A program made the translations under genes and the position numbers. A stretch of DNA of 64,000 nt, taken from positions 1,550,001-1,614,000 of the forward strand of contig JAQGEQ010000043.1 of the NCBI GenBank assembly GCA_034620365.1, given 5' to 3'. The DNA is from Pegea sp. RAD2-039. Taxonomy: Eukaryota; Chordata; Thaliacea; Salpida; Salpidae. This document shows, piece after piece, positions 13,660-64,000 of the stretch (its first letter is position 1; each line of letters starts with the position of its first letter). The notes under the pieces are model-generated. The model was not told where the DNA came from. It did no database searches and was given only the letters and a program-made list of their open reading frames with translations.

Positions 13660-16600
13660 ATGAGTGAAGCTGAATTGTCTGGAAATCTTTGGACTTTGAA
13701 AGAGCAATTGCTCCTAATTGCTTTTGTTATTAAAAATGGAAAAGAGAGTTGGTAAGTGTTGATAAAAGTTTTTATAAATAAATTGATAAGTTTAGTTTGT
13801 TGTAAAGGGAAGAAGATGATTTAGATAATAACATAATCCGTCTAGCATCTAAGTCACCTCGGGAGTTAGGTTGGTATTCGCCTGAAAATTGCCAAAATGA
13901 ATTTGAAAATATTGTTACTAACAATTCACAATATACCTCCAAGTAAGTTTTATTTTGTTTTTTTAATATTTTTTAAATTATAAAATTCTTTAAAGTGATT
14001 TATGAATGGATTAAAATTGTTATTATACTTTTCAAAACTAACTAAATTGTTGCCATATTTATATTTTATATATTTATTTATACATATTTAGATCTATAAC
14101 AGTATAATAATAATTTTGTAAATATTAAATTAAAACATATTAGATTATGTTTTTGCATTATGATTAGTTTGTAAACTTAAGATATTCTTCAAACTATAAA
14201 ATCTCTCTTGTTTATAAACCGGTTCTATTTTTGATTATTATTTTACTATTTAAATTGATAAAGAATAAACTTTAACTTTTTTCTTGAAGAACAATATCAG
14301 AAGATGAACTCCAAAATTTAATGATAAAACAAAGAACACTTTGTGTTAATTTCATGATTTCAAAAATGAATGAGTATAAAGTTGAGAGTAAAAAGATGAC
14401 ATCTTTAAGAAATAAAGTTTGTTTAACACTTTATTTGATGACATTAAGAGAATTAAAATTTAGTTACAAAGTTATCAAACATTTTGTTTTACATTTTGAC
14501 TAAAATAATTTTTTAGATAATAAACAGAGAACAATTAAATCACGAAGAAAAAATCCATTTAAAAAGTGTCACAAAAAGGTTTGTAAAAATGAACAGATTT
14601 CGATTAAATGAAAAAAGTTTTTTGGGGAATTTTAGTCAAATATTTTTCAGATATCTTCCAACTGATGAAGATGAAATTGAAGATCCTTGTTTGGAAGTTT
14701 TAGAAAGTGTTTCGGAAGAAAAATCTTTAGTTTCAGCGCCATCAGAAGTTCTTTCAAATGGTAATCATGAAGTTTTGATGACTAAATTCCTTTTGTAGTT
14801 TTGTAATTCTGCATCCACATCAGCCCTATCAATTTAACTCTTTTTTTTGTGCAGATGATATTTTGAAGGATGCAAAAGACATCGAAATAAAGGTTGATTT
14901 GGATAAAATCTCGACAACGTCAATTGAGAATTATGGGAAAATAGAAAGATTAGATGAAGTTACTAAAGAAGATGAAAAAATGGATTTAGATGAAGATTCA
15001 GCTGAATCTGAAGCAGTTGATAAAGTTTCTAAAGAAGTTGATGAAGTAGTCATGGAAGAAGAGCAAAGTAAAATCAAAGATGTTGAGATGCAAGATGTAA
15101 CAGATTTAGTGAGTAAGAAGTGAGAAATAAGATTTGAAATTGATGATCGGATGTTGTTGCAGATTGTTGAAGAGAGCAATCAAATGTCTGAAGATCAAAT
15201 TCAGGTAAATCAAATTTTGATGATAATTGTAAATGTAAATGTTGTACAACAGATGCAAACAAGAGAAGATTTTGGAGGTGGAGATCCAGTTGTAGAAGAA
15301 ACCCCAGTTGTAGAAGAAACTCCTGTTGGAAGTGAAGCTGCTGTTGAAAAAGAAGCTGCTGTTGGAGATGAAGCTCCTGTTGAAGAAGCTCTTGTTGAAG
15401 ATGAAGCTCTTGTTGAAGATGAAGCTCTTGTTGAAGAGGAAGCTCTTGTTGAAGATGAAGCTCTTGTTGAAGATGAAGTTGTTGTTGAAAGTGAAACTCC
15501 CGTTAAAGGTAAATTTTCTCATTTTAATTTATTTAAATACAATTTTGAGCTTTCCATTCATCACAAAAGTTGAAAATAAATTATTTTTATTTATTTGATT
15601 ATTTTATCTAAACTCAAAATGTGAGAATCTTTTTCAATTTTTCTAGAACCAGCTTTAGATGATCGAATGGTATCTGAAGAAATCGTGAAACAATCTGCTG
15701 GTGATAATCAAGTAATATGATTTGATGATAAACAATTATTTGTAAAACTATAAAAATCTCAATTAGAATTTCGTGCTGATCAAATTCAATTTTTGTAGAA
15801 AACTGAGATGGTTGGAATAGAAAATTCAAAGAAAGAAACTGAAGCCTGTGATCTTATGCAAGATAAAACAAATGCTGCAACTGTTGCTGAAGAGATGAAA
15901 TCAGAAGAAGATCTGAAAATAGCTGATGAGACTTCTTTAAATTTGATTGAAGATAAACCAAAGGATTCGGCTTCGAATGAAGTTTGTGAAAATCTTGCAG
16001 CAAAAGAAAAAGTTAAAGAGATCGAAAGTCCTCAAGTCGATAAAGTGGTTAGCAAAGAAGTCAGACTTTGGTTCAATTTCAATCGTTTTTTTTTTAATTT
16101 AAGGTTTTTCAGATTAAAGAAGAACCGAAAACTGAGAGAGCCACTCCAAGAAGAAGGTCAAAAGCCGGAAAACGACGTAAGCAACTCATTGAATGATATT
16201 TGGAAGTTAATCAAGCTGTTTTCAGGTTCTAAACAGAAGACATCGGTTGCCAAGCCAGCGCCTTGTACTACAGCTGAAGCTTCAGCGTTAGTTGCATCTT
16301 TCAAAATTTCAGGATTTAAAAAAAACGAATTTGTAGAAATGAAGAAGATGAAGATAAAGTGAAAGTCACTGACAAAGACAAAGCACATCGTATCTGGAAG
16401 TCGACTACATTAGCACTTTTGAAGCAGATTAGTTCTTTAAGGTGATATCTGACATTCTAATGTGATTTGTGATGGAATTTCCTTCTTTAGATGTTCAGAT
16501 ATCTTTTCGATGCCAGTAAAAGATAAGAACGCTCCGAATTACTCCAAAGTCATTCACTGTCCAATGGACTTGTATACAATCAAAAGAAAGATTGAGACTG

Positions 16601-24327: not shown

Positions 24328-25559
24328 TTACAACTCATCCATAAGCTTCCTTCCAAATTCTGTTGCTTCTGTATGTAACCATAAATCATGATTATTTAGA
24401 ATCTCATCAACAGTCAACTTTTGATCCTGATCAGAATCGCATTCTTCTATCAAATGATCGGTTTCAGCCTCAGCATTTTGATCAATATCGTGAGGTCCAT
24501 TCCATTTTAGGATTTCATCTCCTTTCAAAACTCCATCTTTATCCACATCAAGAATTTCTTCGAATTTATGTTTTGCGTAATTTATCCAATCATCATCTTC
24601 TTCATCAAATTCTTCAGCATTGTCATGGTTCTTCAGAAACTCAATGTATTCATCAAAACTAATGCCACCATCTTTGTTTGTATCAGTGTTATCCAAAGTT
24701 TTGCGGATCCAAGCCTTTCGAGTTTCATTGTTGGTCAGCGGAAACCGAAAAGTTTTCAATTCTTCTAAATTTAAACTTCCATCTCCATTCTGATCAGAAA
24801 CTGCAAAATCCTTTTTTTCTTCTTTAATAGAATTTTCCAATTCGATTTTCTCTTCTTTATTTAAACTGTTGTTTTTTTGATTCCCAAAAATTGCGGATGA
24901 AAACTCTCTCCACAAAATCTTTCCGTTCCCATCTGTATCGATCATTTTGAACTCTTCTTCGAGCTCGCGATTTCGGAGTTCTTTCATTGCGTCCTTTGTC
25001 CATTCCAACAACTCTTTTCTTTCAACAAATCTTAAAACCAAAAAATATTTTTGTAAATTTAATGAGTAACTAAGGTATAAAAAATAATTAATTAAAAATA
25101 TCTATAAATTATAATTATTGATAAATTATTTACTATTTATAGCTAATTTAAAAAATCAAATCATATTTTTCCAAAACTTACTTTCGTCTATTCACGTTCT
25201 ATAATCAATTTAGACCAGAAAATAAGTTTTGACTTTTTATTAAACTTTGAAATGAATCTTTTTACAAACGTTTTATTTACGTTTTTATTAAATATTTTTT
25301 AAACTTACTTATCTTTATTTACATCCATCTTTTTTTCAATGAATATTTTCAGTTTTTCTTTCTGTTCTTCCTCTGACATATCTTCGATGCTTCTTTCTTT
25401 GCCTCCGAGCAAAACTTCTTTGTCATATTCAGCTTGCTCTTCTGAGCTCTTGTTTGGTTTTTCATGTTTGTCTCTGAGCTCAAAAATTGATCTGCTTTTG
25501 ACTGTACTTAGAATAGTTGATAAGATTAAAATACAACAAAACTTTTTACTTAATTCCAT
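24328..25559 (-). CDS. Calumenin/reticulocalbin-like CREC protein A (2 exons, 317 aa)
   Basis: Secretory-pathway, low-affinity Ca2+-binding protein of the CREC family. Exon 1 (25309-25559) encodes a signal peptide (residues 1-22, hydrophobic core CCILILSTILS) and a charged linker. Exon 2 (24328-25030) completes the first EF-hand across the junction. Six EF-hand loops are visible: DVNKDKFVERKEL, DTDGNGKILWREF, DQNGDGSLNLEEL, DTNKDGGISFDEY, DVDKDGVLKGDEI and DSDQDQKLTVDEI; the first and last have weakened ligands. The C-terminus Met-Asp-Glu-Leu is a variant KDEL-type ER retrieval signal. Length (317) matches calumenin (315). It stands head-to-head with paralogue B (26505-27981), which has the same intron at the same position and phase. 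Confidence 0.92.
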
Positions 25560-26504: not shown

Positions 26505-27981
26505 ATGACTTCCAAATTAGTTGTTTTGACATTTCTGATACTTTTTAGTAATATTTCATTTTCGAAATCAGTTTTTGGAACTAAACATGAGCAGAAAAGT
26601 CAGTCTGATATTGATAAAGAGATTCTTCTAGATGACCCGGAAGATTATCCTGATGATGATGTCTTAGATCTCCCTCCTGAAGTTCAGAAAGAACGTTTAA
26701 AGAAATTAGTCGAAGCTAAAATTGATATAGACAAAGATGGGTAAATAATTGTTTTTGTCTCATCATGTTTAAAATAATGATGTCTTTTTTTTGTATTTTA
26801 TTTAACTAATCACAGTTGGTCTAATCATTAATTATACTGATAGTCTACCAATTAATATTTTAATTAATATAATTAATGATTGAAAAGTAGTTTATTTAAA
26901 TTCTATTTGTTTTTATAAATCTTTTTTTTGTAAGTTAATTTTTTCAAAGTTTATTTTGTTTGGGTTATTAGTCTAAAATATTTAATTATTAATTAAATTA
27001 TTAATATAAGAATCTGGTACAAGATGTATTATAATTGAATAATTATTTTTGCTGAGTAATATTAAATCAAAGTATAAGTAATTTATATTATAAAAATAAT
27101 ATTGTTAGTATAATTCAAAAGGTTTTTATATTTCATTATTATAGTTTTTTATATTTTTTGAAAGTTATCAAAATATTAAAACTTTTCCTGGAATTTTTGT
27201 TTTATGTTTTTATAATTTCGTTTTAGTATAAAACTTATGTAATAGCAAAAAAAAACTAAATTAAAACTTTTTGTTCAGTTTTGTGGATTCTGATGAGCTT
27301 TACAAGTGGACTTTAAAAGCTTACAATCATTTTGAGGTGGAAGACCTTAGAGATGAAATTCAAATAGTTGATGAAGATAGAGATGGATCAGTCTCTTGGA
27401 AAGAACATTGCACTGATGTCTTTGGAGCTGAGTGTGCTGAGAAAGATGATTGTTTTGTAGATCCACAGACATCTGAAGATATCCAAAATGCTTTTAATTA
27501 TAATAAAGATAAAGAATTATTTGCTGCATCTGATACTAACAAGGATGGTTTGCTGGACTTCTCTGAGTATGTTGTCTTCAAACATCCTAGAAGATCAGAG
27601 ATCACTTCAAAAGTTGTCGTACAAACCAAACTAGAAAAACTTGATTCCAATTCAGATGGAGCTCTTGATCTAAAAGAGTTTTTAAAGGACACTCAAGATC
27701 AAACAACTGATGAAAATACTCATAAAATGGAAGAAGAACGATTTACAGATGAATTAGATGTTGATGGGAATGGTAAGCTTGATGAAAAGGAAGTTCTTGA
27801 TTGGTTGGAACCAAATAATGAAGCTGAGGCCCATGATGAAGCTGATCATTTGATGTCAGAATGTGATTCAGATGATAATTCCAAACTTTCAGTCGAAGAA
27901 ATTTTGAACAATCACAACATTTGGGTGGACAGCGACGCGACTGATTATGGAAGGTACCTTTTAGATCATGATGAATTGTAA
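26505..27981 (+). CDS. Calumenin/reticulocalbin-like CREC protein B (2 exons, 312 aa)
   Basis: Second CREC-family ER Ca2+-binding protein. Exon 1 (26505-26740) encodes a signal peptide (core LVVLTFLILFSNISFS) and an acidic linker. The 538-nt intron interrupts the first EF-hand in phase 2. Exon 2 (27279-27981) carries the rest. Loops: DIDKDGFVDSDEL, DEDRDGSVSWKEH, DTNKDGLLDFSEY, DSNSDGALDLKEF, DVDGNGKLDEKEV and DSDDNSKLSVEEI. It ends in a classical His-Asp-Glu-Leu ER-retrieval tetrapeptide. The last ~40 residues (AEADHLxxECDSD, EEILNNHxxWxxxATxxGR) are closely shared with protein A. An extra acidic segment with two Cys (AECAEKDDC) sits after EF-hand 2. Calumenin and reticulocalbin cannot be told apart by eye. 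Confidence 0.92.
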
Positions 27982-49622: not shown

Positions 49623-51107
49623 ATGAAGATATCAGTAATTTGGTGTTTCATCTTTCATCTTGTCTATTCATTCTCACCTTTGGATGATGATATTTTGTTT
49701 GATATTATCTGGCATCCATCAGGAACAAAGCTCGAAGATTTAGTAGCTCCTGGCCAGCAATTAAATCCATCAAACTCTTATCAGATGTCAACAGCAATAA
49801 AGGAACACTACACTTGTATGCTGCCATTTCAGTTAGCAAGTGATGAGGAGAAAGTCCTTAAAGTAAACAAAGATAATGCTCCTCATGTCTTACTAGCTCC
49901 TTTGTTTAAGTCAGAGACTTGTGCTTATAGGGTTGAATCTTATTGGACTTTTGAGGTTTGTTACTCAAAACATGTCCGTCAATATCATGAAGAAAGGGTT
50001 AGAGGAAATATAAAAGCTTCTGATAGAGATAAGTTGACAGTTACAACAGAACAAGGAGCAAAATTAACAATTCAGGCAAATGAGGAAGAAAATGAACTGA
50101 TTCAAACCACTGAATATTTTTTAGGATATTTAAATTTGAACGTTGACTCAAAAGGAGTTCTTTTGAATCCTCCTTTAGCTCCAAAAAATGTGGATGAAGT
50201 CCCTTATAAAAAGATTAATGGAGTCAGTCGTCCTTACTATGCAGTTGAGATGAATAGAGGAACTGCTTGTGATTTGAAACCAGGAACTTATAGAACTACA
50301 ACCCTTGTGTTTGTTTGCTCTTCAAAAGCGTTCAATGAAATTGTTTCTGTGACTGAAACATCAACTTGCCAGTATGAAGTTGTTGTATTCACTCCATATC
50401 TTTGTGGGAACCCCCTATATAGAATCCAGGAAAAAGAAATGAATAAAATTCAATGTATAGCAGATGAAGGTTCCCCTCTTAAGCCCAAAGCGCTTGCTAG
50501 TCGAGAAGAAAGTTTGATGAGTGCTTTAAATCAACAAACTTTGTTACAAACAGTTATCAATCAAGCTATGCAAGTTTCTGAAGTTAAAAATGTGAAAAAT
50601 AAAGCTGCTCAAATGACGATGGAAAAACCGCAAAAGCCCATAAAAGTCACAAGTTCGGATAAAATTTGGATAAAAGATTTTTTTTCAGGACTACATTGTC
50701 TTCATGGTGGTAGTGGTTGGTGGCGGTTTGAGTTCTGTTATTTGAAATTTGTCAATCAATATCATCAAGATACCAAAACTGGGGTTAAAACAAGTATAAA
50801 ATTAGGTGAATGGGATAAAACGAAGCATTTAGAATGGACAAAGAAAACTAATCCTTTGATCACTCAAAAAAATGGAGAAATTCAAGGAATTAAACAACTT
50901 TATACGAATGGTGATTTTTGTGAAGCTTCAAACACAAACAGGCAAGTTATTGTCAAGTTAATTTGTAAAAAGAGTTTAAAAAGTGACAGTGCAGTCTCTA
51001 TGCATTTGAGGGAACCTTCTGTCTGTTCATATGTTCTCACAATTGAGTCCTCTATGATCTGTGATTTTACAAATACTGCGAATGAACATGGTTTAATTGA
51101 ATTATGA
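49623..51107 (+). CDS. ERLEC1: Endoplasmic reticulum lectin 1 / XTP3-B (single exon, 494 aa)
   Basis: ER lumen lectin that recognises trimmed N-glycans and delivers misfolded glycoproteins to the HRD1-SEL1L ERAD complex. The ATG at 49623 gives a signal peptide (MKISVIWCFIFHLVYSFS); the open frame extends 22 codons further upstream but only from a TTG. Two MRH domains are visible. MRH1 (~62-262) has WTFEVCYSKHVRQYHEE (108-124), GTYRTTTLVFVC and ETSTCQYE. MRH2 (~359-480) has HGGSGWWRFEFCYLKFVNQY (361-380), NRQVIVKLIC and REPSVCSYVLTIES. The Gln, Arg, Glu and Tyr used for mannose binding appear in order in both, and MRH2 keeps the family WW pair. Length is close to human ERLEC1 (483). Intronless. 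Confidence 0.95.
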   Translation: MKISVIWCFIFHLVYSFSPLDDDILFDIIWHPSGTKLEDLVAPGQQLNPSNSYQMSTAIKEHYTCMLPFQLASDEEKVLKVNKDNAPHVLLAPLFKSETCAYRVESYWTFEVCYSKHVRQYHEERVRGNIKASDRDKLTVTTEQGAKLTIQANEEENELIQTTEYFLGYLNLNVDSKGVLLNPPLAPKNVDEVPYKKINGVSRPYYAVEMNRGTACDLKPGTYRTTTLVFVCSSKAFNEIVSVTETSTCQYEVVVFTPYLCGNPLYRIQEKEMNKIQCIADEGSPLKPKALASREESLMSALNQQTLLQTVINQAMQVSEVKNVKNKAAQMTMEKPQKPIKVTSSDKIWIKDFFSGLHCLHGGSGWWRFEFCYLKFVNQYHQDTKTGVKTSIKLGEWDKTKHLEWTKKTNPLITQKNGEIQGIKQLYTNGDFCEASNTNRQVIVKLICKKSLKSDSAVSMHLREPSVCSYVLTIESSMICDFTNTANEHGLIEL

Positions 51108-52360
51108 TTTTCACTCTGAATTACGATTGTTAAACAATTTAAAAATCAAATTTTTAAAGTTTTCAATTTTTAGTCTGAAATTAATTTATTTTGGAATAAA
51201 ATTTCTATAAAAAGAGATTTCAAAAAAGGTATTTTATGAAACTATTATATGCAAATGTCCAAATAGTTTTAATATGTGTAGAAAAATTGATTTATGACTT
51301 TAAAACTGATGAAAATATAACTTCTTATCAAATTATTTGGAAAATAATATTTATATTTGAAGTTTTTAGTATCAATTTTACAAAAAGTAGTGATAAAAAA
51401 CTGAACAAAGTTTTCAGATTTAAAATGAATATCTCTAAAATTATTTTATTTTAAAAGTAATCCGAATCTCCGTGAGCTTTATAAGTTATTAATGAAGCTT
51501 ATGATTTATGACTCATTCAGTTAGCAGCCACTTCCTTTTTATTATCTGGATTGGATCATTTTTAGAAAATCTAACTTTCTTATGAACTGAAAAACAACTT
51601 CATTATTTGAACTTTAATAATTAACAATTTATTAACATTTGAATTTAATTTTTAAATCATCATAAATTGCTGACATTCCCAAAACTTTTATTCAATTTCT
51701 ATCAAATTCACTTTAACAGTATGATTAAAACTTGTTTTATTATTAAAAATTTTCATCAAAATCTTTTGTCGGAAATTCTTCGACCAACAATACCATACAA
51801 GTTAATAAAATGTTGATGGGTGAATACATAAATTTTCAAAAATGTAAACTTTTATTATATTTGCACGACAAAATGGGCTTATTTATATATATTAGTTTAT
51901 TTAAATTTGATCGCATCTATCATATTGAAACAACTCGTAGTAGAATTCAAAATTGAATTTTTAATTTTCTTACCATTTTAAACGTCTATCAACTTCATAA
52001 TAAACGAAAAACTAAAATATAAAACTGTCAAAATTGATATATTTATTTATTGCAATAAAAGCGAAGTAGGGTGCCTGAAATAAGAACTTCTTGCCAACAC
52101 ATATTTTCACAAATAGTGAACTATTAATTACGAATAAGATGAAAATATAGAAAAAAATAGATGTAACACGTGGCAGCTCAGAGGTCCCCATATAGAATAA
52201 CAGTGAATATTTATATGGAATGTTAAAAATATATACAGTTTAAAACTGACAATTCTGGCAACATTAGAAAGGTCCAACTTCAGCTTGCATAAATTATATT
52301 CTATTTAATGCATTAGAGGTCGGAATTCTATCAGTCAAACAAGTTTACTAATCAATCACG
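51108..52360. other. AT-rich intergenic sequence
   Basis: ERLEC1 3' flank; no gene recognised. From about 52140 base composition rises, which marks the start of transposon-like DNA. Confidence 0.45.
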
Positions 52361-52378
52361 TTAATGATACTTCAGAAA

Positions 52379-52450
52379 CTCATTCTGCCGAGGATAAGAT
52401 CCTAGACCCGAGAGACCTGCCTACTACCACTGGACTAACCCAGAGTGAGT
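52379..52450 (-). repeat. tRNA-like segment with pol III A/B-box resemblance
   Basis: Read on the minus strand, this ~70-nt segment contains TTAGTCCAGTGGTAGTAGGC, close to a tRNA A-box, and then GGATCTTATCC, a degraded B-box, at tRNA-like spacing. A T-arm with four of five pairs can be drawn, but the acceptor stem is not convincing. It may be the head of a second SINE family or part of a transposon. It is not an intact tRNA gene. Confidence 0.4.
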
Positions 52451-53797
52451 TTACTGAACATTACGGATTACGAATCATTGAAAGTGGCTCTTTTCGCTAG
52501 CGAGCAACTCAAGAACTGGGTGGATGCCCATAAGAATATACTCGATTATGCAGGAATTGCCAAAACACTATTATAACTATGCTCATAGACAAAGCCAAAG
52601 TAGCACATGGCGACGGCTGGTTTAAAGCAATGAGCAATATAGGAAACTTGATTCTCTTCTACTGCATTAGAGGGGGGCAAACATCTCTAAAGCGATAAGA
52701 AAGATGACAGAACAGGTGAGAGAAAGAATGTCAACCGGAGGCTCCACCGGGACTAAATTTTCGGTAATGCTTCCTAAGCTGGTAGGGTGTTATCCTACCA
52801 TTTCGATTAAAGTCTAGCCCACATGCCAGAAATGTGCAGAAATACTACAGGAAAGAGCTACAACACTTTACTCGCTTTATTATCACTGATTTCTAAGAAA
52901 ACGCCATGATGAAGTGATGAAGCAAGTTGGTTTATTCGCCCTCTTAGATTTTGATTAGTTGATTAACCAGGACAACTCCAGTTGGACATTCAATCATGCA
53001 ACGGTAGAGAAGTATCAAAAGATCAAATATATGTGGTATTTAGGCGCTCTTAAGCCTTTCAAATAGACTCCCGACTGTCAACATCCCATACATAGAGTTT
53101 CTACATTGAAAGTGGAATGATTTGAAAAATCTGCTTCAATTTAAACTTGAACAATACAGTATCTTCCGGCAGCATCTAGCCCTAACATAATGGTTTTAGC
53201 AAGGTACTTCTAGATATTCATTTCGAATCGTAATCCATATCTCTATCTTCATATCTCCACCTTGGTTCTCATTTCATATCAAACTTATCACCTCTCTCTC
53301 CTATCAGAGAATTTATGAACTTAATATCTAAATTTACAAACCCATCTTCAAAAGCCAAAACAAGTCTCCACACTCTCTGCAACAACTTGGATTTTTAAGG
53401 AGCTGAAAATCCATCTAAAGTTTCATACACTCCAGATCAGGTTTTATTTTATCTCTTTTCATCTAATAACCTCGGAAACAAAGCTTTTCTAAGCTATATA
53501 CTACACTTTGTTAAAGGTCATTTTTGTGCCTCCGACGGACTAACGAACTGTGGTACGGAGCTGTTCTACCAAAAACGTGTACACTGGATAAAAGAAAAAC
53601 GCGAAATCATACAATATAAAGGAAAAGAAGCAAATTCTAGGGCTACAAAGCATGTTATCCCGTTTCCACTATCCTCTCTTCCACGATGGAAGTAACAACT
53701 TCCACGGAATTTTTGGAAAAGCGCTCATATCTCTCTCGTCGCCATTTGTGATTACTTTCATCTTATTCTTCCTTGGAATAATAAAACTTCGGTGTCC
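52451..53797. other. Transposon-like DNA of mixed origin
   Basis: Higher-GC sequence with broken open frames on the plus strand. They include an open stretch without ATG at 53399-53694 (about 98 codons, with YTPDQVLFYLFSSNNLGNKA) preceded across one stop by a compatible frame from about 53310. No domain was recognised. It is most likely decayed element sequence linked to the gag remnant on its right. Confidence 0.35.
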
Positions 53798-54686
53798 TTA
53801 TTGGTTCCTGACCAGATAGAGTAGGCTTATTATTTGTTCTTTATACCGTGAGGTTGTATGTCTTCTTCTGCTTTTTTTTAGCTTTTCTACCTCACAATAA
53901 CTAGAACGTCCGGATACTCTTTCATTTAGCTGAGTAGCACACAAACACTCAACCCTGGTCTGGGCCGTCACTGCAACTCTTTTCTTATTTCTTTTCCCAT
54001 GCAGCTGCTTCTTAGATGACCCAATTTTAACATCACACGAAAGACTATACCTTGCTCGCAATAGAGTCATCTACCATCGCATGGTTCAATTGGTTGGGAA
54101 ATCGAGTAAGCCCCAGTACTACATGTCCTTGACTATTCACTGCAGCTCTCTCCATACTTTGCCTTTCCGACTGTTTCTTGATAGACTTCTTCTGAAGATG
54201 ACAGACTCGAATATAGTGTCCCTTCATTCCATATTTGAAGCATAAGCTCAAACCAGCTCGGTATCTTGTAAAATCATGAGGTTTGCTACCTCCACATTTT
54301 AAACAAGCTCCTTTCATATCCGCTACTGAAGTTCCGATTGGTCCTACTCCATGAGCTCCATTGAATTCACTGATTCTTCTGCAGCTTCAACCGATTTGTC
54401 AGATTTGAAGTATTGGTTTCTCCGCTGTCATCTTTCAGTGCCACTGCTTGGTTAAAGGCTTGCTTTAATTCCTATGTTCTGCTGCAGTAATATTATTAAA
54501 ATCCTTGGCTAGGCATAACAAAGTGCATCGGAAGTTTTTTTTTAATTTGACTTGGCTCTTGCTTTTCCATTCGTAGTCGATGACGCAGAAACATTTCATT
54601 TGGTTTCCCTATACACAACCGCTCTAGCGTCGTTTCAGCTTCGACATAAGCTCTGGAAATATTAGTCTTCAGTTGTGCTGTTAACA
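53798..54686 (-). mobile_element. Ty3/gypsy-like gag (nucleocapsid) remnant
   Basis: Minus-strand open frames at 54496-54687, 54045-54317 and 53798-54070 form a broken gag-like region. The middle one contains two zinc-knuckle-like motifs: CLKCGGSKPHDFTRYR, then CFKYGMKGHYIRVC, whose second cysteine position is Tyr. This paired-knuckle arrangement followed by a basic region is typical of LTR-retrotransposon nucleocapsids. The upstream frame (NEMFLRHRLRMEKQEPS) resembles gag spacing. Frame breaks and lost zinc ligands show it is inactive. No protease, reverse transcriptase, integrase or LTR pair was found. It ends directly at the outer edge of the left inverted-repeat arm. Confidence 0.6.
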
Positions 54687-54910
54687 ATTTTTATGGGAGA
54701 TAAATCAGTTAGATCCTCATAAATCCAAGTAAGTTGCTGAAACTTGTGCTGCTTGTTCAACTATTTTCAATTTGTTGCAGATATTCTATACTTTCAACTG
54801 CAAGATGTTCAGCTACTATTAGACAAACAGCTTCCTCAAAAGATAGTTCTACATTGATTTGTGTCTGTGATGATGCTACTATATGGAGATGGGACTCAAA
54901 CAGCAAATAG
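54687..54910 (+). pseudogene. EED: Truncated 3' copy of EED
   Basis: Contains the end of the penultimate EED exon ([14 protein letters not shown]), the same ~95-nt intron with GTAAGT donor and TTGTTGCAG acceptor, and the complete last exon up to TAG at 54908-54910 ([10 protein letters not shown] to [10 protein letters not shown]). One difference changes the Phe of the complete gene to Ser (TTC to TCC), and the Glu-Leu before Asn-Gln is Glu-Ile here. All upstream exons are missing, so it cannot encode a WD40 propeller. It is a by-product of the inverted duplication. Confidence 0.92.
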
Positions 54911-56107
54911 TTTCTCAGTCGAAAATTTTTTTGTTATTTTGTGTGATGATCAAATAAAAGTTTTTATTTTCTAATTCTTATGATTTGATTAGAGAAATCC
55001 TCGCTTACTGTCTCAGATAATCTTCTTCTAAGTTATTATTCAATGTTTTGTTATTTTAGTGGCATTAAATGATAAATTTTAACAGAGTTTATCTAAAAAC
55101 CTGTAAATTACCCCCCTTAAATTTAGGTGGATAAGTTTTACAAGGTGTTTATCATTTAAGCGATGGTCTTCAATTGTTTTTATTTTTTGAGATTAAACAG
55201 CGCTGTGTTTGTTAGGAATGATTTATATGAAACTTCGGGTTCTTTTTACTCTAATAACCAAATACAATGACTGTTTTGTTTACTGGTAGAGCAATATTTC
55301 AGTTAGACTTTGCAAAAGTTTGTAAATCTAGCTTAACACTCACCAAACAAAACATTTTTTACTCAAATTTAAACAATTAGAAACAAAAAAAAATGATTTC
55401 AAATATAAAGTTTTTTAATTTACCAATAGCGCTACCATGCGGATAATTAGCAAGATTATTGAACTCTATTAAATTCTACTTAGGCTTTCTCTTTTTACAA
55501 TTACTAATTTGTGTAGAATTTGTCTTAAATTATTCTAAAACTTTAGATGTTTCTAAGTTATTCTGATTATTTAAAATCTAATGTTAAATTTTTAATTTGC
55601 ATCTGATTCTATAGAATTTGAATTTTATTGCAATTTTTGTCGATCTTTGTTTTTAACTTTTATACCGATTTTTAAAAACTTTTTAAAAATCTGAATATAA
55701 TTAATTTATTTTTTTTCATGAATTTTGTGTCGTTATCTTTGATTATTGTTTTTTTAACTAACAACATTTTAGCAAGCAAAATTTGCAAAGTTTTTCTTTG
55801 GTCAATTAAATAATTAAAAACAAATTTTTTTTCGAATTATGTCTACATACATACATAATTATGCCTTCATTTTTTGATTTCAAGATTATTTTTTTATCTA
55901 ATAAGTTACAATTTAATTTTCAAAATCGACTATTTCTTAAACTTTTGTAACTTTAATTTTATTTTTAATTCTATTTTTTGTTATACCCTTTTCTAATTTT
56001 TCGTCTAAATTGAAGTTTTTTTTATAAATTTTTATTTTGAATATTATAAAAGTAATTTTCTATAATTAGTATTTTTAAGGTTTAGAGCATTTATCTATAA
56101 CTTAAAA

Positions 56108-56629
56108 ATGTCGACATCGAAACAAGTTTTGTTTAAACGTCCAACTGAAATACTTCCAAATACAAAAGTTGAAAAACCATTTGCTTGTACTTATTGCCAT
56201 AAAGGTTTCGCAAGAAAAACTTATCTACAAAATCATGAACGGATTCATTTGGGTATAAAACCATATCAATGTGACATTTGTTTGAAACGTTTTACAGAAT
56301 CAGGAGCTATGAAATGTCATCGACGAATTCATTTCAACGATCGACCTTTTAAATGCGATATTTGTGACAGAAGTTTCAAGTTTACCTCTTGTTTAAAAAG
56401 ACATAAAATTGCCCATTCAACACCTCGACCATTTCCATGCTTATACTGTAACAAGTTTTACAAAACTTTGAAGAGTAGAAGAGCTCATATGTTGAAATTT
56501 CATAATGAAGAATATTTAGTTTTTGAAAGGCTTTATAAGGAATTCCCTCTGAAACCTCAAAATGGTAGTTCAGAAAGCTCTGACGAAAGGCTAACTTTAA
56601 TAGAAGTTAAGAAAAGAGTTACTAAATAG
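56108..56629 (+). CDS. Four-finger C2H2 zinc-finger protein A (173 aa)
   Basis: Intronless; probable sequence-specific DNA-binding protein. Four C2H2 fingers follow a ~24-residue N-terminus: CTYCHKGFARKTYLQNHERIH (28-48; quoted here by ends C28 and H48), CDICLKRFTESGAMKCH-type (55-75), CDICDRSFKFTSCLKRHKIA (83-103) and CLYCNKFYKTLKSRRAHMLK (111-132). Linkers are LGIKPY, FNDRPF and STPRPF rather than TGEKP. A ~40-residue acidic/basic tail (YLVFERLYKEFPLKPQ, then SSESSDERLTLIEVKKR) follows. No KRAB, BTB or ZAD domain is present. The gene lies in the left inverted-repeat arm; its mirror copy B (57911-58432) differs at seven residues, all between 38 and 110. The orthologous family was not recognised. 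Confidence 0.9.
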   Translation: MSTSKQVLFKRPTEILPNTKVEKPFACTYCHKGFARKTYLQNHERIHLGIKPYQCDICLKRFTESGAMKCHRRIHFNDRPFKCDICDRSFKFTSCLKRHKIAHSTPRPFPCLYCNKFYKTLKSRRAHMLKFHNEEYLVFERLYKEFPLKPQNGSSESSDERLTLIEVKKRVTK

Positions 56630-56830
56630 ACTACTTTCTAAAAATGTTCTTTTATAATATAGTGTTCATATTGTTGAAAAATTATGAAACAGTTCTTGTA
56701 TTTTCGTTCTTCATGTTCTTATTTCTTTGCAGACGGTTAGTTACATCAGAAAACTTTTGATTTTATCTTCACATTTTATTCAATGTTCTTCAAAAACAAT
56801 TCTTGGATTTTTACTGTCATTGTTATATTT

Positions 56831-57519
56831 GAAGACTAATGATTAATTTTTTGACTTGAAGATTATGAGAAAAATTAAATGGAATTTCCTACATTTTCCT
56901 CTGCCACATCAAGAAGTCAATTTATTCTGATCTCATCATTTTAAGAAACTTATAAATATTTTTATGATTTTACTGAAATTTAATTATGTCAAGACAAATT
57001 TAATAGAAGACTTAATATTTTCGTGAATGTTTTCTAAATAAAATTTCTTTCATATATTTACCATTTTATTTTATTTTGCTTGTAAATAACCTCTAGTTGA
57101 TGAGCTGGGGTTTAATTATTTTATTTGTTTAACACACGGTCACAGATAAACACCTGCTTTCAAAAAACACAAAATAATTTTACAACAAAATGTGAAAAAA
57201 TCAAAACATATTATAAGTATATCTCAGCAATTATTACAAATAAAGAAAATGGCAGCCTAATATATTACGTCAAAAAAAAATACTCGAATCAAATTTATTC
57301 CACTTGATTTTAAAAGAGAATATATTCACATTAGTTGCCTAACCAGTAAATTAAGATATATCAACACCTGAAAAATGTAGTCTTCCTCGCATCGGATTGT
57401 TTAGTCTAGAAGAGCATCGGATGTTTAGTTAAGAAATGTATCATCAATAAATAAAGTAGATGTAAAATTTCAAGCCTTTAATTCAAACAAATTCACAACC
57501 TTTAATCTTCTGATGTGAC
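56831..57519. other. Spacer between inverted-repeat arms
   Basis: About 0.7 kb of unique A/T-rich sequence between the arms. No gene recognised; an open frame at 57125-57307 has no supporting features. Confidence 0.6.
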
Positions 57520-57542
57520 AGTAAAAATCCAAGAACTATTGT

Positions 57543-57740
57543 ATATAGCCAGACCTCTATTTTCAGAAAAAAATAAAGTTTAGAAAAATGTTTATACTAG
57601 ACTGAAGACGATAACTTCTGCTAGAAGAGAAATATAAAAAACGTTTATTTATACATCTTTAATTAATCTTTAATTGATCATCATCATAATGTATAATCTC
57701 AGTTTAAATTGAAGCTGTGGTACTTACTTGATTATCAAAA
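57543..57740. repeat. ~200-nt indel in the right arm
   Basis: Present only in the right arm, between the blocks matching left-arm 56790-56808 and 56809-56830. It is A/T-rich, and no terminal repeats or poly-A tail were obvious, so insertion in the right arm and deletion from the left arm are both possible. Confidence 0.7.
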
Positions 57741-57910
57741 AGTGGTTTTGAAGATAATTGAATAAATGTGAAGATAAAATCAAAAGTTTTCTGATGTAAC
57801 TAACCGTCTGCAAAGAAATAAGAACATGAAGAACGAAAATACAAGAACTGTTTCATAATTTTTCAACAATATGAACACTATATTATAAAAGAACATTTTT
57901 AGAAAGTAGT

Positions 57911-58432
57911 CTATTTAGTAACTCTTTTCTTAACTTCTATTAAAGTTAGCCTTTCGTCAGAGCTTTCTGAACTACCATTTTGAGGTTTCAGAGGGAATTC
58001 CTTATAAAGCCTTTCAAAAACTAAATATTCTTCATTATGAAATTTCAACATATGAGCTCTTCTACTCTTCAAAGTTTTGTAAAACTTGTTACAGTATAAG
58101 CATTGAAATGGTCGAGGTGTTAAATGGGCAATTTTATGTCCTTTTAAAGAAGAGGTAAACTTGAAACTTCTGTCACAAATATCGCATTTAAAAGGTCGAT
58201 CGTTGAAATGAATTCGTCGATGACATTTCATAGCTCCTGGTTCTGTAAAACGTTTCAAACAAACATCACATTGATATGGTTTTATACCCAAATGAATCCG
58301 TTCATGATTTTGTAGATAACATTTTCTTGCGAAACCTTTATGGCAATAAGTACAAGCAAATGGTTTTTCAACTTTTGTATTTGGAAGTATTTCAGTTGGA
58401 CGTTTAAACAAAACTTGTTTCGATGTCGACAT
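57911..58432 (-). CDS. Four-finger C2H2 zinc-finger protein B (173 aa)
   Basis: Mirror-image paralogue of protein A, intact and intronless, on the same strand as EED with ~1.2 kb between the EED stop and this start. Differences from A: Thr38Cys (finger 1, helix position +2), Ile57Val, Ser65Pro (finger 2, +1), Cys95Ser and Arg98Gly (finger 3, +3 and +6), Ser104Leu and Pro110Gln (linker before finger 4). All zinc ligands are kept. Eight of nine nucleotide differences are non-synonymous, and residues 1-37 and 111-173 are identical. Its position beside the complete EED gene suggests that this is the older copy, though ancestral residues cannot be assigned without an outgroup. Confidence 0.9.
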   Translation of the reverse strand: MSTSKQVLFKRPTEILPNTKVEKPFACTYCHKGFARKCYLQNHERIHLGIKPYQCDVCLKRFTEPGAMKCHRRIHFNDRPFKCDICDRSFKFTSSLKGHKIAHLTPRPFQCLYCNKFYKTLKSRRAHMLKFHNEEYLVFERLYKEFPLKPQNGSSESSDERLTLIEVKKRVTK

Positions 58433-59615
58433 TTTTAAGTTATAGATAAATGCTCTAAACCTTAAAAATACTAATTATAGAAAATTACTTTTATAATATT
58501 CAAAATAAAAATTTATAAAAAAAACTTCAAATTTAGACGAAAAATTAGAAAAGGGTATAACAAAAAATAGATTTAAAAATAAAATTAAAGTTACAAAAGT
58601 TTAAGAAATAGTCGATTTTGAAAATTAAATTGTAACTTATTAGATAAAAAAATAATCTAGAAATCAAAAAATGAACATCGTAGACATAATTCGAAAAAAA
58701 ATTTGTTTTTAATTATTTAATTGACCAAAGAAAAACTTTGCAAATTTTGCTTGCTAAAATGTTGTTAGTTAAAAAAACAATAATCAAAGATAACGACACA
58801 AAATTCATGAAAAAAAATAAATTAATTATATTCAGATTTTTAAAAAGTTTTTAAAAATCGGTATAAAAGTTTAAAACAAAGATCGACAAAAATTGCAAAA
58901 AAATTCAAATTCTATAGAATCAGACGCAAATTAAAAATTTAACATTAGATTTTAAATAATCAGAATAACTTAGAAACATCTAAAGTTTTAGAATAATTTA
59001 AGACAAATTCTACACAAATTAGTAATTGTAAAAAGAGAAAGCTTTGACTAGAATTTAACAGAGTTCAATAATCTTGCTAATTATCCGCATGGTAGCGCTA
59101 TTGGTAAATTAAAAAACTTTATATTTGAAATCATTTTTTTTGTTTCTAATTGTTTAAATTTGAGTAAAAAATGTTTTGTTTGGTGAGTATTAAGTTAAAT
59201 TTACAAACTTTTGCAAAGTCTAACTGAAATATTGCTCTACCAGTAAACAAAACAATCATTGTATTTGGTTATTAGAGTAAAAAGAACCCGAAGTTTCATA
59301 TAAATCATTCCTAACAAACACAAAGCTGTCTAATCTCAAAAAATAAAAATAATTGAAGACCATCGCTTAAATGATAAACACCTTGTAAAACTTATCCACC
59401 TAAATTTAAGGGGGGTAATTTACAGGTTTTTAGATAAACTCTGTTAAAATTTATCATTTAATGCCACTAAAATAACAAAACATTGAATAATAACTTAGAA
59501 GAAGATTATCTGAGACAGTAAGCGATGATTTCTCTAATCAAATCATAAGAATTAGAAAATAAAAACTTTTATTTGATCATCACATAAAATAACAAAAAAA
59601 TTTTCGACTGAGAAA

Positions 59616-61397
59616 CTATTTGCTGTTTGAGTCCCATCTCCATATAGTAGCATCATCACAGACACAAATCAATGTAGAACTATCTTTTGAGAAAGCTGTT
59701 TGTCTAATAGTAGCTGAACATCTTGCAGTTGAAAGTATAGAATATCTGCAACAAATTGAAAATAGTTGAACAAGCAGCACAAGTTTCAGCAACTTACTTG
59801 GATTTATGAGGATCTAACTGATTTAATTCCCATAAAAATGTTTTTCCAAACAAGTTACCAACCGCCAAATACTTGAGAACAAATTTGAATGAGTTTATCA
59901 AACTAATTCCATCATTAGTTGCTCACTTTGTGATGAAAGTCGATAGCAAATCTCATGTACCAGATGTCACAGTGATTAAACTCAAGTCGACTGAGTACTG
60001 TCAAGTTAGTCTCCTTGGGTTTCAAATCATCGATGTCACTGTTAACAGAACCCGGCTTCCAACATACAATAGAGTTCTCGCAAGACTAGAAATAAAAATG
60101 TTTGAAGATGATAAAGGTTGAGGTTAAGAGCAGACCTTAGAGAGGATGTAGTCACCAAACCATCTCGCACAATCGACGTAGTTGCGATGAATATCTCGTG
60201 TAGAGAAGTAAGGACAATGAAAATGTAAAGTTGGAAAAGCTCTGAAGTACAAATCGAGTCCAATCTTTTGATTCTGACTTTAACTTGCTTCAAACTTACT
60301 CTGGAGAATCACCCACATAAACATCAGACGATTTCAGTGCCAGAAGCAATTCTTCAGTATCGAACCTCCACACCTTCAACGAGTGATCCATTCCACAACT
60401 GATAATTTTAGTTCCACAAATATCAAAATCCTGCAAAAATGTTTCAGTATTGCACAAAGAACAGAAGAAAGATAAGGATCACTAACACAACTTAAGACTT
60501 CATCACGATGCCCTTCTACTCCAGCAAACAAACAAACTAGTACATCCGTCTTCACGTTCCACACTCTCAACGAATGATCTTTCGAAGCACTCAGCAAGAT
60601 ATGAGGTCGAGTGGGATGAAACTTGAGTTCATTGACAGCGTTCCCGTGACTGATGTAATGCTGCGACATCAGCTAATCACTATCATCCATTTATTGATGA
60701 CGTCATGATACCTTGACGCAATCACGTGTGAAAATGTTGAGTAAGCGAATGAGTCCTCGAGCACCGGCAAAAGCCAGTAGAGGGTGTTGGGTGGTGGTAT
60801 CGACTGTCCAAGCGCAAGAATAGAACGTCTCTTCACTCTGCAATCGATAGACAGTAATGACGTCAACAGTGATGACATCATGATCAAGTACTAACGTCAG
60901 AGTCGACATAAGCTTGAATAGCTTTCATATAGCCCGATTGACGACATTCGTAGACAGTGATTCGATTACTGCCGACAGCTGCAAACATCTGAGGTTGATC
61001 TGCAGGTAGATGATAATTGAAGGCAACACCAAACAGAGGTTTGCCATGATCTTCCTGATGAAGAAGCAAACAAGATAAGAAGACAATTAAGAACAAGAAG
61101 TGATAAGAATCAGAATGTGAGTAAGGTCAGGAAATGATGAAGATTGGGAATTGATAAGAATAAAAGAGTAAGAAAGATAAAAAAGGACATTACTTTTATT
61201 GAGTTTGTCAGCTTAAAACCTCCTTTAGGAGAAACTTTTTTTGCCATTTTGCTTTTTCCTTTTCCTCTTTTTGATCTTGAACTAGTCATATTAGAGTTCA
61301 AAGCAAAATGTTTGATGGGAGTTGAAGTTTGGGGATCAATTTCCACCAAAGTAGAAATTCCATCAGCAGAATTTAAGCTTTCTGAATTAACTTCCAT
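59616..61397 (-). CDS. EED: Polycomb protein EED (9 exons, ~420 aa)
   Basis: WD40 subunit of PRC2 that binds H3K27me3 and stimulates EZH methyltransferase activity. Nine exons were traced from ATG 61397 to TAG 59616-59618, with introns of ~50-110 nt. After a basic N-terminus come [146 protein letters not shown] and [16 protein letters not shown] to TIWRWD. The aromatic-cage positions equivalent to human Phe97, Tyr148 and Tyr365 (in PLFGV, FYSCAW and IWYMRF) are conserved. Length is near human EED (441). The last ~1.5 exons belong to the inverted-repeat arm and are duplicated at 54687-54910. Confidence 0.95.
60696..60867. promoter_or_regulatory. TGACGTCA palindromes in two EED introns
   Basis: Exact TGACGTCA at 60698-60705 and 60858-60865, each inside a short (~50-60 nt) EED intron. 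They are part of a window-wide excess of this octamer. The function as a bZIP site or as an intronic element is unknown. Confidence 0.3.
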
Positions 61398-64000
61398 TAA
61401 GTAAATAATTAAATTATAGATATCCTGAAAATATAAATCATTGAAATTAATATAATAAACTTATTTCATAATATTCATAAGTAGATCACTTGATTTTTGT
61501 AACTCATACTATTATTTTACTTATCTAATTTGTAAGCAAACCAATTTCAGGGCTTTATAGTGAAACTGATGTTGATATTTTTGTCAACTGATCAATTTAG
61601 AGATGATTTTAATATGGTTTATTATAATTAATTACTGATTAAATAGTTAAATTTCTACTAAAAATAACTATTTAAGTCAAGTTCCCAGAATAAAGTCTTA
61701 ATAATGTTTAAGAATAACTCTAATATAAGTTATTTACACAATTCTATGAAATTTATTAATTAACTATAACTGTTTAAAAATCAAATTTATGTTTAATAAC
61801 CAAATTTTATAAAAATGACTTTTAAGTTATGTATGTAAGTAAAATATAATTAACTCAATATAAAAAATAATTTTTATTCAAATTTCAACAAAGCTTTTAG
61901 AAATGCAAACTTATTTATTCTACAATTCTCAATTTCTATAAAACTTCTTCTAAAGAATTTCTATATCTTAAAGCAGTTGTATTTACATGAATAATATATT
62001 TGATATAATTTATAGACATTTTATACAAACAAATTTTTATAAATTAAATGAGTAAAATAAAGATTGGATCATATAAGTTAAAGCTTTCGCAATTTATAAA
62101 CATTACTTTAAATGTCTGTTGTATTAAATAATTCTAACAAAATCTTCATTTTAATGAAGAATGTAATTTTCATTAATATATTTTATAAGTTTTTTATTTT
62201 AAAGCTAAAATGTTTCATTTCTACCAAACTTTTGCCTACAAAATCATTTTTGCATTTGCTATTCGTAGCAGTTAAAAAATTATAATAGAATAATCATTTT
62301 TTTAATTTATTTATGCATTGAACGCTTAGCTGCAAGTTACAAATTCAAATTTTGGCTCGAATACATAAGTGTATGAGTTGCTATTAAATTTTTCATCACT
62401 TTTAAATATGATACTTAAAAATATAGCTTTTTGAAAAAATTGTAAGTTTTATAAGAATAACATAACATTACAGTATTAAAGTCACTAGAAAATTAAATAC
62501 AAAGTACCAATAATCATGTATTTCAACAAAAAATTAACGTTTAAAGATAATTTTCGAAAAAAGAGAACAGGTTTGCATTAAAGTAAAAAACTTTAATTCA
62601 CTTTTATAATTATAATGTTTAAGTTTATTTTCTCAATCAAATTAAGAAATAACAAATTGAACTCTTCGAAGTTTAACTTCTGTCTTTACTCATTAAAGCT
62701 TGTCAAAAGTTATTATATATACTTAACTTAGAATCAAATACAAGAAAATGGCATATCAGTTTAAAAATACTAGTAAGCTACATGCTTTGAATTTATAATA
62801 TGTTTAATAACTGAACAAACAAAACCTCATCAGTAAATAACTTCTTATTGCAAAGGAGTCTTTAGTATTTTTTAGTGGCTAAAGGTCTCCAAATATTTTG
62901 AAAGAGAGTTCGGCCCTTTAAAAGGAATTTCTGATTAACCTAGGACAACTTTTTTCACTCGTACTGTACCCACGTATCTCGCAATGTCTTGTTAATTTTT
63001 ACTCTAATAACCAAGGAAATTACATTGATTTGTGATTGTTTTCTTAGGACACCGGTCTGCATCACCTCTTGTCTTCTTCTTTTTCGTCACCCTTTTCTAA
63101 AGGTTGACCCTCAATGATTTGACGTCATAGATTGTCGTACGCCTTCCTTTGTTAGACATACGAATGCAGCCGTGAGTCTATTTTGCCAAATTATTGAATT
63201 TGCTTATTAACCATCAAAAGCAATATTTAAAAAAACTAAAGTTTATTGCGCATCAGTGAATTATTTGAAAGATTTTAAATTATGTTTATAGTATGTCGTA
63301 ACTTTATCTTTATTTGATTATAGTGTTATCAGTGATTTGGAGTTTTGTTTGAGGAATTTTAAGTTTCAAAGTGCCTATCTAAGTTTGAAATCACTTTCAG
63401 AATACTTATGTTTTTCAAGACTTAATTAAAAGCCAACAACCATTTGAATTATTTAAAAAATCAAACCTATAAGCTTTTAAACAAACGTATTGTATATAGC
63501 AAAAAATTGAAAAAATGATCTTTTTGAAATCTAAATAATTTTTTATAATCATCTAAAAATATTTTACAAACCGGTACATTAAAAGTGTTATAAAAATTGT
63601 TAAGAGATTTTTTGTAATAAATTTAAAAAAAATGTTTTGAAGCTAAAAATGTTTTTTTTTTTAATTATTTAATTGATTATATTCGGATAAAGAAGCAAAG
63701 TTTATTGTTACTTTTTTCTATTTGAAAACAAATTAATTTTGTAAAGATTTTTAGTTTAAACATAAAATTAAATTTTTTACTTTAATTATTTTTTTCTGCT
63801 TCAATTGAGATTTAAGCTTTTTAAATAATTTCATATTTGATCGTAATATCAATCATCTAATAAACTTTAAGAAAATGTGCAGATTAGAGATCGTGGATGC
63901 TGACGTCAACAGTTGTACCTTACATAAACTTTGATTTTTGTGACGTCATAATTTGAGTTTTTAGCTACGATGAAAATTAAGAAAATTGTTGAAATTGCAA
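61398..64000. other. Intergenic, upstream of EED
   Basis: Mostly A/T-rich; the EED promoter lies at the left. A higher-GC patch at about 62880-63190 looks like decayed foreign sequence, but no motif was recognised. TGACGTCA sites occur at 63120-63127, 63901-63908 and 63941-63948. No gene is supported up to the window end. Confidence 0.45.

Follow-up and report, generated by a model that had tools for sequence, protein, structure and literature searches.

How did a short piece of a salp genome come to hold two facing copies of a zinc-finger gene, each accompanied by the end of the Polycomb core gene EED, and which copy came first? The locus lies in a window of 64,000 nucleotides of contig JAQGEQ010000043.1 of Pegea sp. 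RAD2-039 (C30:1550001-1614000; assembly GCA_034620365.1, 105.7 Mb in 387 contigs). We consider it probable that the palindrome is a fairly recent inverted segmental duplication, and that the adjoining EED belongs to an older pair with an EED on contig C3, the core of which has been homogenised by gene conversion.

Structure of the palindrome

The palindrome was assessed from the assembled sequence. Four inverted blocks found by a repeat search of the window tile a single structure. Self-BLAST of the window (E ≤ 1e-10) paired 54687-56805 with 59839-57736, at 97.36% identity over 2121 columns, and this was the sole inverted pair reported in the 64 kb. A sensitive search of the inner edge added an exact 20-bp inverted match (56800-56819 with 57516-57535), which carries the arms beyond an insertion or deletion (indel) of about 200 bp. 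The parts are:

54687-56819, forward strand: left arm, 2133 bp, from self-BLAST, base-by-base alignment and the sensitive inner-edge search
56820-57515, no strand: unduplicated spacer, 696 bp
57516-59839, reverse strand: right arm, 2324 bp, including about 200 bp (57536-57735) that the left arm is without

Within 50000-64000, 2476 inverted 40-mer matches were observed, compared with none in each of 20 two-base-block shuffles, so chance is excluded as the source of the palindrome. A previous sequence-only reading had described an inverted duplication with arms of about 2.1 and 2.3 kb separated by about 0.7 kb, each arm with an intact zinc-finger gene and the last part of EED. The repeat search, self-BLAST, alignment and shuffle control bear out the duplication, and its measured dimensions and gene content agree with that description. 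Up to position 56784, 35 of 2081 aligned bases differ between the arms (98.3% identity), with 19 gap columns; divergence is higher in the inner tip, 56785-56805.

The spacer has no long copy elsewhere, its short repeat matches being confined to 57183-57317 and 57240-57294. The step of about 200 bp at 57536-57735 has no relative elsewhere among the matches listed, which makes an inserted repeat a less likely explanation for it.

The EED fragment and the outer joint

The outer edge of the palindrome involves three features:

59616-61397, reverse strand: complete EED, 9 exons, 420 amino acids
54687-54910, forward strand: EED 3' fragment, in which 42 nt of exon 8 precede intron 8 and exon 9, without exons further upstream
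52000-54686, reverse strand: decayed, dispersed retroelement-like sequence, truncated where the left arm begins

Residues 10-416 of the 420-residue EED product match EED of PDB entry 6c23, chain L (E 2.1e-162). The arm boundary falls inside exon 8 of this gene; the right arm contains the end of the complete gene, and the counterpart in the left arm would be a dead fragment. The joint at 54687 is therefore inside EED exon 8 and, on its other side, inside the retroelement-like sequence, with few bases shared at the junction. Copies of this element, at least 69% identical, occur on many contigs among the matches listed, and past the point at which the copy in the window stops, homology between other copies continues for about 490 bp (L037/L038) or 410 bp (L037/L041). 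The label retroelement is our reading of a CCHC-like motif in an open reading frame (ORF); one ORF piece of the element, scanned against Pfam, gave no match. A joint that is both mid-exon and mid-element is what template switching or end joining would leave, not the clean insertion of an element.

The right arm had been proposed as the source and the left arm as the copy. For the EED end, right-to-left copying fits, as the left EED begins mid-exon against a truncated retroelement and has a serine in place of a phenylalanine. Of 250 core columns common to the left arm, the right arm and the C3 EED, 246 agree; the left arm is the odd one out at three and C3 at one. Two of the three left-arm sites lie near the outer joint, at a distance of 12-13 bp; at the third the left arm has Ser, with Phe in the right arm, the C3 EED and the EED of PDB 6c23. 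Further out, 144 of 166 columns agree, the right arm being odd at 2 and C3 at 19, with 1 gap. At these 19 sites the left arm has the right-arm state, so its source was the C30 EED, with no separate derivation from the C3 gene.

The alternative that survives best, unlikely as we judge it, is an assembly artefact, in which a pair of diverged alleles, or else a chimeric read that folds back, would have been joined head-on. Palindromes are hard to assemble, and C30 ends about 12 kb away from the locus. However, with a 1.7% difference between them and indels besides, the arms are not one molecule read twice, and the left arm passes mid-exon into different, old sequence, as would not be expected of an allele of the right side. 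Searches with the flanks C30:1614001-1620000 and C3:4507048-4516448 (61501-64000 left out) gave, among the matches listed, only short matches elsewhere besides EED and no second long copy, although single-copy flanks are also expected from a haplotype-collapsed assembly.

A second complete EED with a probably homogenised core

The window contains one complete EED, on the right-arm side, as the sequence-only reading had it; the genome contains two. The second, at C3:4510268-4512049, encodes an identical protein of 420 amino acids, with 3 silent differences. With the EED protein as query, 24 matches were obtained in the genome, of which 18 are in the two EED genes and the left-arm fragment; the 6 others are weak (E 1.3e-5 to 4.6e-4) and are taken as general WD-repeat similarity. 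A VEFS-box match is present at a single place in the genome. The likeness of the two genes is centred on one tract:

59590-61500, reverse strand: core shared with the C3 EED, 9 of 1911 aligned bases different, introns included

The core differences are distributed over the coding sequence (3/1263), introns (4/519), 5' flank (2/103) and a 3' piece (0/26). On either side are homologous edges, 59425-59589 and 61501-61585, in which 36 of 245 bases differ (21/165 and 15/80, respectively), and beyond which the alignment is lost. The difference rates of EED introns and edges are clearly distinct (P 6e-15, with core and edge limits chosen after the divergence profile was seen). As the introns are near-identical, selection on the protein cannot account for the likeness of the pair. 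A homogenised tract, silent sites included, lying inside more diverged homologous edges is the pattern by which interlocus gene conversion is recognised, and this pair shows it; the pair would be an old duplication with a core recently homogenised in this way.

A rival that concerns the EED pair alone is recent duplication of the 1.9-kb piece without gene conversion. It would leave a core near-identical throughout, introns included, as observed, but a recent copy would stop sharply, whereas on both sides homology persists through 80-165 bp in which 12-19% of bases differ; we hold it to be improbable. An allele or haplotig of the C30 locus was rejected for the C3 gene. By ORF reading, the neighbours are different, kelch-like and PIG-U-like on C30 and RhoGEF-like, DYRK-like and 5-phosphatase-like on C3, and the flank searches described above (61501-64000 left out) gave no second long copy among the matches listed. 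A retrocopy was rejected because the introns are kept.

The zinc-finger genes and the divergence of the arms

Each arm encodes one zinc-finger protein, and the two genes converge on the spacer:

56108-56629, forward strand: left zinc-finger gene, 173 amino acids, single ORF, four C2H2 fingers
57911-58432, reverse strand: right zinc-finger gene, 173 amino acids, single ORF, four C2H2 fingers

Both ORFs are intact, and both genes are probably still translated. Each copy has four C-x2-C-x12-H-x3/4-H motifs with their Cys2-His2 ligands unaltered, and the left copy scores above the Pfam zf-C2H2 cut-off. The copies differ at 9 of 522 bases, 8 of them non-synonymous (in 7 codons) and 1 silent, none affecting a finger ligand. 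All nine fall within 218 of the 522 coding bases (P 0.005, by a test picked after seeing the data). By the usual numbering of the finger helices, four of the seven replacements are in helix positions 1 to 6, which is suggestive only. Positive selection on the fingers is not supported: although the ratio of non-synonymous to synonymous change (dN/dS) between the arms reaches 2.0, a share of non-synonymous changes as high as that observed, at least 8 of 9, would arise by chance with P 0.40. Constraint on the pair is too weakly measured for a relaxed or a diversifying call.

Close relatives are present on C6 (74% identity, residues 1-136) and C12 (60%, residues 21-152); the further matches listed are at most 48% identical and look like ordinary C2H2 genes, which are plentiful in this genome (at least 321 matches). 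At the nine sites that differ between the arms, the C6 relative has the left-arm base at five and the right-arm base at four. With this split the zinc-finger changes give no copying direction, and the proposed right-to-left copying stands for the EED end only. Nor do the same nine sites support the idea that the right zinc-finger gene was converted by its C6 relative. Among the matches listed, C2H2 zinc-finger genes are very numerous on a few contigs (C254, C255, C60 and C92).

The arms had also been described as near-perfect, as if homogenised. This is not supported, and a sex-chromosome-like palindrome, its arms kept alike by continuing arm-to-arm gene conversion, is very doubtful. Sex linkage and amplification, which the sequence-only reading mentioned for such palindromes, find no support in these data. 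Such conversion could be read from the absence of substitutions in 56437-56784 and 55970-56218, set against 9 substitutions within 218 bp of the finger region, but whole-arm tests for clusters and runs of differences were not significant (P 0.29 and 0.35, respectively). At just 98.3% identity and 2.1-2.3 kb, the arms are outside the range of ampliconic palindromes (identity above 99%, arms longer than 10 kb). The palindromes of sex chromosomes, as presented in the parts of PMC8981503 and PMC5997626 used here, likewise have facing arms with a gene in each; the arms described here are far shorter and less alike.

The least credible alternative is a hairpin RNA (hpRNA) locus, in which read-through would give a 2-kb duplex and small interfering RNAs (siRNAs) against zinc-finger and EED transcripts: a long inverted repeat with converging genes and a 696-bp loop has the right geometry, and Piwi-domain matches occur at three places in the genome, but both zinc-finger ORFs are intact and the spacer has poly(A)-signal hexamers on both strands (albeit common in AT-rich DNA). 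The same scant credence applies to a newborn hpRNA locus that would place a Polycomb core gene under endogenous RNA interference, with zinc-finger copies diverging at DNA-contacting helices; if true, read-through would start from the EED or zinc-finger promoter, and siRNAs would match the 3' ends of both intact EEDs and the zinc-finger genes.

Origin of the palindrome

The inverted segmental duplication that we favour would be of an ordinary kind, produced by fold-back or template switching during DNA repair or replication. A break or stalled fork to the left of the zinc-finger gene would fold back or switch template, and copying would run back through the zinc-finger gene as far as EED exon 8. 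The new copy would then be joined to the retroelement remnant, leaving the 696-bp spacer unduplicated. The step of about 200 bp may mean that the left arm later lost sequence or that the template was switched a second time. Foldback inversions in yeast (PMC7467729) are reportedly a related system. Most likely, the resulting structure does nothing special, and simply holds a pair of intact zinc-finger genes that are diverging by drift, alongside a defunct EED end.

Several points weigh against this account. The inner edge is no simple fold-back joint, since in the right copy the 20-bp match is set off from the remaining arm by about 200 bp; the match, at the edge of the spacer, may itself have been copied. 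The converted core of about 1.9 kb is long compared with the usual Caenorhabditis tracts. Conversion and palindrome are not set apart in age by their non-coding divergence, with 6 of 648 bases different in the C3/C30 core and 23 of 1388 between the arms (P 0.23). Finally, the case is made from assembled sequence.

In the portion of PMC3907307 drawn on here, human fold-back inverted duplications have a unique spacer of 766-70,466 bp, and a short inverted homology at its edge is typical. The palindrome has the same inverted copies, unique spacer and outer joint to unrelated sequence, and its 20-bp inverted match at the spacer edge may be such a homology or may itself have been copied. It is different in being about 2 kb long and within a contig, not a large terminal rearrangement, in its shorter spacer of 696 bp and in the extra inner-edge step. 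Young inverted gene duplicates of C. elegans, according to the section of PMC2728529 used, are also adjacent inverted copies that include part of a neighbouring gene, and the span here is near their median of 1.4 kb; at 98.3% identity, however, the present copies are not newborn. The EED pair, for its part, is like Caenorhabditis paralogs with interlocus gene conversion in having a homogenised core, introns included, and diverged edges. Its core of about 1.9 kb is above the usual 50-200 nt and inside the range, which extends to 2958 bp (values from the part of PMC3966223 consulted).

Other features of the contigs

A search of the assembly for COX1 gave no match. Over 72 kb examined on C30 and 60 kb on C3, all other inverted pairs are on C3, between copies of a repeat resembling a long interspersed nuclear element (a label from reading its ORFs) and between two satellite arrays. 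Arrays of a 52-bp satellite are located at C30:1620200-1622135, at the end of that contig, and at C3:4527503-4529487 and 4545842-4546548, about 17 kb inside C3 and at its end; they are 92-94% alike over 0.7-1.9 kb. Among the matches listed, those above 90% identity and longer than about 60 bp are only on C30 and C3, and units of about 50 bp at 90-96% are found on many contigs. At a guess, C30 and C3 may be neighbours, and both contigs may end at breaks within satellite arrays of one type. Arrays spaced by about 113 bp on many contigs (e.g. C22, C73, C103 and C159) contain a short unit that recurs in the 52-bp satellite and near C3:4515300.

Elsewhere in the window, two genes read as EF-hand-like, 24331-25101 (reverse strand) and 27265-27978 (forward strand), are in opposite orientation and 32% identical over 244 aligned residues; possibly they are an old inverted gene pair. 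A short tandem repeat at 15272-15508, 75% identical between copies, lies inside an acidic ORF at 15124-15570.

Significance

The palindrome is a fairly young and clean example of how one inverted duplication yields a second whole gene together with a dead gene end. The EED pair is the more useful part of the locus. As a Polycomb core gene in two complete copies with identical proteins and a sharply bounded homogenised core, it offers a natural case in which to ask whether conversion keeps paralogs together.

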